A stretch of DNA of 64,000 nucleotides from Flavobacteriia bacterium (lineage in GTDB: Bacteria; Bacteroidota; Bacteroidia; Flavobacteriales; Flavobacteriaceae). Positions 34,593 through 36,789 of the stretch are shown in pieces; the first letter of the stretch is position 1, and each line of letters begins with the position of its first letter. A model generated the notes under the pieces. It was given only the letters and a program-made list of their open reading frames with translations. It had not been told where the DNA came from and ran no database searches. The stretch is taken from the NCBI GenBank assembly GCA_013298525.1, contig JAAFHW010000001.1, positions 1 through 64,000 on the forward strand, written 5' to 3'. The position numbers and the translations under genes are program-made.

Positions 34593-35276
34593 ATGATAAA
34601 CGATATATTATCTGCCATACCTTGGGGAATTTTACTTGCATTTACTGTTGGTCCAGTATTTTTTGTACTTCTTGAAACTAGTATTACTAAAGGATTTAGA
34701 GCAGCTATGGTTTTTGACTTTGGAGTAGTTTTTGCCGATTTTGTATTCATTCTTATTGCTTATTTTTCTACCAATCAAATACTTGAAAAACTTAAAGACG
34801 ATCCAGGATTATTTATCTTTGGTGGCGCTGTAATGTTGGTTTACGGAATCATTTCATATGTAAAAGAAAAAAAGAGTTACAAAAAGCAACTTGATGAAGA
34901 ACTTGAAGATGATAATATCCAAAAAAACAACTACTTAGGTTTATTTTTTAAAGGATTTCTTTTAAATTTCATCAACATTGGAGTCTTAGCTTTTTGGATG
35001 GGAATCATCATTGTTTTTGGTCCAAAATTAAATATGGAAACAAACAGAATTGTTCTTTTCATAGCTTGTATTATCCTTACTTATTTCGCTGTTGATATCA
35101 TAAAAATCATGGTTGCCAAACAACTAAAATCAAGAATGACACCACACAATATTTACAAGATAAAAAGAGTTATCAGTATTATTCTAATGATTTTTGGTGG
35201 TTTTTTAATGGCGCAAGGTTTCTTCCCAAAAGAAAAAGAAATGATAAAAGAGAAGTTAGAGCAGTTGAAGGATTAA
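34593..35276 (+). CDS. LysE family transporter
   Basis: IPWGILLAFTVGPVFFVLLETSITKGFRAAMVFDFGVVFADFVFI. Confidence 0.9.
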   Translation: MINDILSAIPWGILLAFTVGPVFFVLLETSITKGFRAAMVFDFGVVFADFVFILIAYFSTNQILEKLKDDPGLFIFGGAVMLVYGIISYVKEKKSYKKQLDEELEDDNIQKNNYLGLFFKGFLLNFINIGVLAFWMGIIIVFGPKLNMETNRIVLFIACIILTYFAVDIIKIMVAKQLKSRMTPHNIYKIKRVISIILMIFGGFLMAQGFFPKEKEMIKEKLEQLKD

Positions 35277-35840: not shown

Positions 35841-35986
35841 TCGCCTAAAAGCTTTTTAAAGTAATGGTGAGTCTCGGAATTTTTTGAAATTAGAAAAGGT
35901 ATTTAATTTAATATTTAAACTTTAGTAGAATTCTTTTTTTATGAGATTATTCATTTCCATGAAAGAAAAATAATGTTTTAAGGAAA

Positions 35987-36265
35987 GGATTCGAACACAA
36001 CTTTAATTAATTTTTTCTAAAAATTTAATATAAAAAAAGAGACACATTTCTGTATCTCTTCTTGAGGCATCGTCCGGATTCGAACACAACTTTAATCAAT
36101 TTTTTCTAAAAATTTACAATAAAAAAACCTCCAAGTTTCCTTGAAGGTTTTAGAGGCATCGTCCGGATTCGAACATATCTTTAATTAATTTTTTCTAAAA
36201 ATTTATAATAAAAAAAACCTCCAAGTTTCCTTGAAGGTTTCAGAGGCATCGTCCGGATTCGAACC
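35987..36265 (-). repeat. Tandem array (~89-90 bp period) of tRNA-Cys 3'-end fragments, each with AT-rich linker and terminator hairpin
   Basis: GAGGCATCGTCCGGATTCGAAC at 36064-36085, 36153-36174 and 36243-36264 (the last inside tRNA-Cys), plus truncated GGATTCGAAC at 35987-35996; linker ACTTTAATTAATTTTTTCTAAAAATTTA conserved. Confidence 0.9.
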
Positions 36266-36314
36266 GGAGTAGGAGCTTTTGCAGAGCCCAGCCTAGCCGC
36301 TCGGCCACGACGCC
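36244..36314 (-). tRNA. tRNA-Cys (GCA)
   Basis: Reverse complement GGCGTCGTGGCCGAGCGGCTAGGCTGGGCTCTGCAAAAGCTCCTACTCCGGTTCGAATCCGGACGATGCCT: 7-bp acceptor stem, anticodon loop CTGCAAA, TTCGAAT loop, U73; CCA not encoded. Confidence 0.95.
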
Positions 36315-36429: not shown

Positions 36430-36789
36430 CTAATTTCTATATTCTTCCATTTCAATAGTAACAGCTTCAACATCACCACCAATAGGCGGATTTAGTTTAG
36501 AAACTGCCAACACAATTCTAGAAACAGAAGGGATTTCTTTAAAGATTCTTGTGATGATTCGATGAGCAACATGTTCTAAAAGTTTGGCTCTAATATCCAT
36601 TTCTTCTACTACAATTTGATTTAAAAGTACATAATCAACCGTATCTTTCAATTCATCTGTGAGTGAAGACTTTCTTAAGTCGGTTTTAATTTCTAAATCA
36701 ACTCTATAATCTGAACCAATTTTTCCTTCCTCTTCAAGACATCCATGAAAGGAAAAAGTTCTAATATTCTGTAATTTAATTGTTCCCAT
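36430..36789 (-). CDS. folB: Dihydroneopterin aldolase
   Basis: IKLQNIRTFSFHGCLEEEGKIGSDYRVDLEIKTDL; ISRIVLAVSKLNPPIGGDVEAVTIEME. Confidence 0.93.
   Translation of the reverse strand: MGTIKLQNIRTFSFHGCLEEEGKIGSDYRVDLEIKTDLRKSSLTDELKDTVDYVLLNQIVVEEMDIRAKLLEHVAHRIITRIFKEIPSVSRIVLAVSKLNPPIGGDVEAVTIEMEEYRN

Follow-up and report, generated by a model that had tools for sequence, protein, structure and literature searches.

Displaced gene ends beside a constant linker in Flavobacterium: tail repeats behind tRNA-Cys and their possible origin by micro-insertion

The window, a 64,000-nucleotide stretch of contig JAAFHW010000001.1 from a Flavobacterium-like genome of the Flavobacteriaceae (G000; 2.98 Mb in 181 contigs, surveyed by pattern and tRNA searches), carries an intact tRNA-Cys gene with folB as its upstream neighbor and a convergent gene for a LysE-type translocator on its other side (Table 1). 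A LysE homologue lies no more than 1.5 kb downstream of tRNA-Cys in 108 of 134 loci searched by tblastn. Behind the tRNA gene we located an 89-nt direct repeat (copies at 35987-36075, 36076-36164, and 36165-36253), each unit of which is made up of a tail copy, a terminator-like hairpin, and a constant AT-rich linker that we call P (AATTTTTARRAAAAATT-NNN-TAAA, a short AT palindrome plus TAAA). The copied tail, GTTCGAATCCGGACGATGCCTC, is the last 22 nt of the gene. The initial annotation had described a repeated 22-nt tail, a period of about 89 bp, a linker in every unit, and terminators of two kinds, and all of these were recovered: two exact tail copies and a remnant, three copies of the repeat, three P linkers, and three hairpins against a mean of 0.3 in shuffles. 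Two hairpins have CCTTCAAGGAAACTTGGAGG in common, the distal one is AAGAGATACAGAAATGTGTCTCTT, and the folding energy of either type is close to -15 kcal/mol.

Table 1. Features of the tRNA-Cys array and its neighboring genes in the window.
Feature	Position	Strand	Evidence
folB (dihydroneopterin aldolase), upstream neighbor	36430..36789	-	Pfam PF02152, E 5.4e-30
tRNA-Cys(GCA), intact gene	36243..36314	-	ARAGORN; Rfam RF00005, 50.6 bits
Terminator-like hairpin 1, CCTTCAAGG type	36214..36241	-	same-type hairpin folds at -15.1 kcal/mol
P linker 1, AAATTTTTAGAAAAAATTAATTAAA	36180..36204	-	exact match; 1 of 4 genome-wide sites
Tail copy 1 (T loop to 3' end), 22/22 identical to tRNA 3' end	36153..36174	-	
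Terminator-like hairpin 2, CCTTCAAGG type	36124..36151	-	terminator-hairpin search
P linker 2, one mismatch	36091..36115	-	genome-wide pattern search
Tail copy 2, 22/22 identical to tRNA-Cys 3' end	36064..36085	-	
Terminator-like hairpin 3, AAGAGATACAG type	36034..36063	-	folds at -14.6 kcal/mol
P linker 3	36002..36026	-	genome-wide pattern search
Truncated tail copy GTTCGAATCC, 10-nt remnant that closes the array	35987..35996	-	
LysE-type translocator gene, convergent neighbor	34593..35276	+	Pfam PF01810

Misassembly, which would have undone the initial annotation, is an unlikely source of the array, because the units differ among themselves and because single-contig genomes of other species (G010, G066, and G133) also have arrays. 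The linker is rare. When AAATTTTTAGAAAAAATTAATTAAA was searched with up to three mismatches, four sites were found in the 2.98-Mb genome and none with the reversed control. Three of the four are those of the tRNA-Cys array, and the other lies behind tRNA-Ser(gga) on contig C105, where P is followed by the tail of tRNA-Ser itself, GTTCGAATCCCAT. Plain simple sequence was considered as an explanation of P and is ruled out by the reversed-pattern controls, which gave zero. As for a promoter, the region has no sigma-70-type match and, by eye, no Bacteroidota -7/-33 motif. A small open reading frame in the unit (ATG TTC GAA TCC ... TAA, open in unit 1) was also rejected; by inspection, its start codon is not kept across species.

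The tRNA-tail array is a real, genus-wide phenomenon. Among 134 Flavobacterium tRNA-Cys loci chosen regardless of arrays, 59 carry a unit of linker and T loop and 31 carry at least two units, whereas a reversed tail was found at 0 of 134. A strict pattern of linker plus TCGAATC matched in 94 of 300 genomes of the genus, with up to 11 matches in one genome and 0 for the reversed control. The initial annotation had proposed comparing the regions downstream of tRNA-Cys in relatives; this comparison revealed that the copy number of units varies between species. A perfect match to the 17-nt consensus of P was found at 52 of 131 loci, against a maximum of 14/17 in shuffles, and in all 72 loci with at least 15/17 matches P lies 35-42 nt behind the tRNA.

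Beyond the genus, the strict pattern was found in no other genus among 301 family genomes searched. A relaxed search retrieved P with tRNA-Cys copies in four genomes from three other genera (L299-L302). A search of GTDB species genomes for the exact 25-mer linker gave 58 stretches; those from records that bear a cultured name belong to Flavobacterium or elsewhere in the Flavobacteriaceae. P also occurs on MAG contigs titled Candidatus Nitrotoga, Bifidobacterium breve, and Chitinophaga pinensis (L352, L366, and L384), which are probably mislabelled or contaminated Flavobacteriaceae sequence. No viral contig among 2.9 million contains P. P-like matches at four further loci (L288, L296, L297, and L345) have neither an RNA gene nor a copied gene end and look like chance. 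Draft contigs L187, L194, and L206 (G101, G071, and G094) stop in or near tRNA-Cys arrays; because draft contigs end in or just behind arrays, short-read assemblies may undercount the units there. The open-access literature, with subscription journals mostly outside its scope, yielded no prior description of tRNA-tail tandem repeats in Flavobacterium, and the insertion-like pattern marked by P seems not to have been described before.

The extent of the copied tail differs across species and at times inside one array, and the copy always starts a few nucleotides past P. The starts recorded in tRNA-Cys are positions 32-33 (anticodon loop), 44-53 (variable region, T stem, or T loop), and 58-60 (close to the T/acceptor junction). 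The observation that the tRNA body is never copied therefore applies to the window but not to other species, in which the copied part may begin in the anticodon loop; no tRNA-Cys copy begins before that loop among the loci examined. Starts at 32-33, 50-53, and 58-60 agree with three integrase subsites (Islander, PMC4383910), and starts at 44, 46, and 48-49, in the T stem or variable region, lie outside them. In many tail copies (L110, L201, L299, L319, and other relatives) palindromes such as TCCCGAAGCTTCGGGA are found inside or just behind the T loop. Arrays differ in their terminators, and a single array may combine more than one type; within a genome, arrays have been homogenised. Decay is greater in distal units: the last units are 69% identical to the tail and the others 78%.

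P was also found at tRNA-Ser, tRNA-Ala, tRNA-Leu(caa), tRNA-Leu(taa), 5S rRNA (identified by its sequence), and once at ribB, which with tRNA-Cys makes seven gene types. When 139 genomes were searched with P only, 16 of the 17 non-Cys sites retrieved lay at tRNA-Leu(taa), tRNA-Leu(caa), tRNA-Ala(ggc), tRNA-Ser(gga), or 5S rRNA. A second P search added further tRNA-Leu sites and one protein-gene site (L338), where the translated start, read by eye, resembles ribB. The units are not confined to tRNA genes, given the sites at 5S rRNA and ribB. At all of these sites P is oriented away from the gene, and what comes after it is a duplicate of the end of that same gene: the 3' end, downstream, for Cys, Ser, Ala, and 5S, and the 5' end, upstream, for tRNA-Leu. 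Of the 131 loci with a detected copy, 103 have its start 5-7 nt beyond TAAA. G064 provides an empty counterpart of the tRNA-Ser locus of G000. P goes with gene ends, whichever way transcription runs, and from this we infer that the underlying process acts at the DNA level.

Three other tRNA genes of G000 have copies of their own ends nearby. At tRNA-Leu(tag) (G000:C90:4339-4420; L066), the tail AGTCCTATTATCCGCAC and a similar terminator are copied about 70 nt downstream, and the tail copy adjoins a different palindrome, CTGAGCGAAGTCGAAG, without P. Downstream of tRNA-Asn (G000:C171:36819-36892; L051) is a copy of the 3' half in which the T-arm region is replaced by the palindromes TCCCGAAAGCTTTCGGGA and TCCCGATAGCTATCGGGA. 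A tail-like copy (19/23) lies 260 nt downstream of tRNA-Met(cat) (G000:C122:10296-10368; L061) and is followed by a terminator-like hairpin of its own.

Occupied and empty sites could be compared directly at tRNA-Leu(taa), which is preceded by tRNA-Gly. Of 22 sequences without P, 20 have 6-15 nt between the two genes, whereas all 18 sequences with P have at least 75 nt; the remaining two P-less gaps measure 28 and 76 nt, the latter with decayed P-like sequence. L286 and L344 contain 54 bp and a 12-nt copy of the tRNA 5' end, followed by the spacer AGTATGGTTTT, and this spacer is identical in the P-less loci L419, L425, and L435. Because L286 and L344 keep the spacer of these P-less loci, the occupied and empty sites differ by exactly a 66-bp insertion with a 12-bp direct repeat; that it reflects insertion, as opposed to clean loss, is a reading based on the fact that most loci lack P, and not on a rooted tree. 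The initial annotation had offered slippage-driven decay of an old tRNA-Cys tandem array as one origin. Neither the 54 bp gained at tRNA-Leu(taa) and absent from the empty site nor the presence of the same P at unrelated genes fits that origin, and, unlike a decayed tandem tRNA array, the Flavobacterium tRNA-Cys copies examined are without the tRNA 5' half. Decay and unequal recombination of the units are likely to have occurred later.

We tentatively propose, as the most plausible of the accounts considered, that the array arose from very small, non-autonomous insertions stacked at the 3' end of tRNA-Cys and multiplied by unequal recombination. Each insertion would have P as a constant right end, 5-6 nt before the displaced copy of the gene's own end, and a locus-specific left part, with a terminator behind 3' ends and other sequence ahead of 5' ends. 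The insertion would be made in DNA by a trans-acting site-specific recombinase or nuclease, after which unequal homologous recombination between the direct repeats would multiply and homogenise the units. That P accompanies duplicated ends of the adjoining gene at seven gene types argues for insertion, as do the near-constant distance from P to the copy, the occupied and empty sites at tRNA-Leu(taa), and the empty tRNA-Ser site in G064. It is possible, if doubtful, that P marks a new class of micro-element of about 45-70 bp. Such elements would be placed in trans at the exact ends of tRNA and 5S rRNA genes and, now and then, of protein genes; they would restore the gene by duplicating its end and build up into cassette-like arrays whose terminators can be exchanged. 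Counting against insertion are the viral contigs without P, the copy starts outside the integrase subsites, and the negative integrase search at the loci without LysE. A classical attP does not fit, because one element cannot bear matching ends for so many targets; the left parts are not conserved between targets. The direct repeats, which range from about 12 to about 90 nt, are too variable for an ordinary transposase.

The same copies could instead have formed without a mobile element, P being a duplication-prone DNA site at which breaks or template switches, arising as DNA next to highly transcribed genes is replicated, fuse P and about 5 nt with a position within the gene; local tandem duplications would then be amplified by unequal recombination. 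The end copied is invariably that of the neighboring gene, and the copy frequently continues into the same terminator and P again; this favors duplication, as do the variable copy number, the greater decay of distal units, and the homogenisation of arrays per genome. At tRNA-Leu(tag) in G000, tail and terminator are copied beside a palindrome other than P. We nevertheless consider this explanation rather unlikely: the tRNA-Leu(taa) insert holds 54 bp that are not present in P-less loci, the same P occurs at unrelated genes, and G000 has no other P site to act as a source.

The initial annotation had also raised att-site footprints left by integrations at the tRNA 3' end. In Islander, an intact tRNA gene is accompanied by a displaced fragment, crossovers lie in the anticodon loop, the T loop, and the T/acceptor junction, and both 3' fragments and rarer 5' fragments occur (PMC4383910). 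The Flavobacterium loci resemble such islands in having an intact gene with a fragment in the same orientation on the correct side (3' downstream for Cys, Ser, and Ala, and 5' upstream for Leu), and the tRNA-Leu(taa) pair also speaks for footprints of an att type, as do the copy starts at the three subsites, although other starts lie outside them. They differ in that a single constant P is shared by many targets, 5S rRNA and ribB among them, and in that the inserts are only about 45-70 bp, with no island and no integrase gene recognised within 1.5 kb, where the Islander filter is 2 kb. The search for integrases within 1.5 kb of tRNA-Cys covered the loci without LysE, with part of the open reading frames scanned against Pfam and the rest read by eye. 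Among these loci, G060 has an IS21-type IstB gene and G014 a Fic gene. Gaps of 1.7-1.8 kb in the arrays of L110 (G318) and L111 (G296) were considered as cassettes between units and proved to be IS insertions, of IS3-type rve and DDE_Tnp_1_6/DUF772 types. Large islands or prophages that were later deleted, leaving attL/attR pairs, would produce the same signature of gene, displaced fragment, and subsites, which here match in part. This origin is very improbable, as an identical residue of P plus 5 nt would have had to remain in many species and at seven gene types; no partial island genes came to light, and the two large array gaps examined are the IS insertions.

Alternatively, the units may be kept because they serve a function, either as rtT-like repeat RNAs or as back-up terminators in series after tRNA-Cys; we regard this as improbable. 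Every unit has a strong hairpin, and the perfect matches to the P consensus are compatible with selection of this kind. The outer pair of the P palindrome, A-T in most variants, is also found as C-G in five and T-A in one, and is mismatched in 8 of 83. In clade A, identity to the tRNA is 95% for the T-loop copy and 71% for the acceptor copy (91% versus 76% without the last units, with 26 of 33 species favoring the T loop and one the acceptor), and in single-unit loci of species whose LysE fourfold sites are 37% identical, the values are 89% for P, 93% for the T-loop copy, 52% for the acceptor copy, and 52% for downstream DNA, but all of these figures are inflated, the loci having been picked by P and T-loop matches and the species being non-independent. 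Moreover, units are absent from more than half of the tRNA-Cys loci, some species keep the acceptor part only, without the T loop, and the tRNA-Leu copies are antisense and upstream of the gene. As RNA, the P hairpin is very weak (-0.2 kcal/mol) and could equally be a DNA site. Functional tail transcripts, suggested by the initial annotation, have in their favor that P and the T-loop copy are better conserved than the acceptor copy in this clade, a difference inflated by the selection of loci. The copies, however, face outward from the gene whether its 5' or its 3' end is duplicated, so transcription direction is not the common denominator.

The closest known analogue is the set of repeats at tyrT in Escherichia coli. 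In E. coli K-12, tail copies lie at +156, +334, and +512 after tyrV, with a period of 178 bp; they start in the T loop and match at 19 of 22 nt. The tyrT/tyrV repeat region also holds an annotated small RNA, rttR. As in Flavobacterium, these are tandem units behind a tRNA gene with a tail copy from the T loop. They differ in the 178-bp unit, the lack of P, the unrelated lineage, and a reported RNA product, rtT, described as arising from tRNA operon processing (PMC4986893). An Rfam scan of the Flavobacterium units at E values up to 10 gave no match to the RtT family, returning tRNA and, below cut-off, other families only. REP and BIME elements are short, non-coding palindromes in intergenic DNA, and P resembles them in these respects. 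Unlike these repeats, of which a genome has many dispersed extragenic copies, P is rare, keeps to gene ends, and precedes a duplicate of the neighboring gene's end.

These findings turn one tRNA oddity into a repeated, testable pattern in a large genus. Searches such as Islander filter out inserts of less than 2 kb at tRNA genes, which calls for caution where small insertions are concerned. One constant sequence stands at a near-fixed distance from the displaced ends of six stable-RNA genes, and occupied and empty sites are available for comparison. The origin of tRNA-tail repeats such as those of E. coli tyrT becomes directly testable, and the pattern may expose a new recombinase or duplication mechanism.
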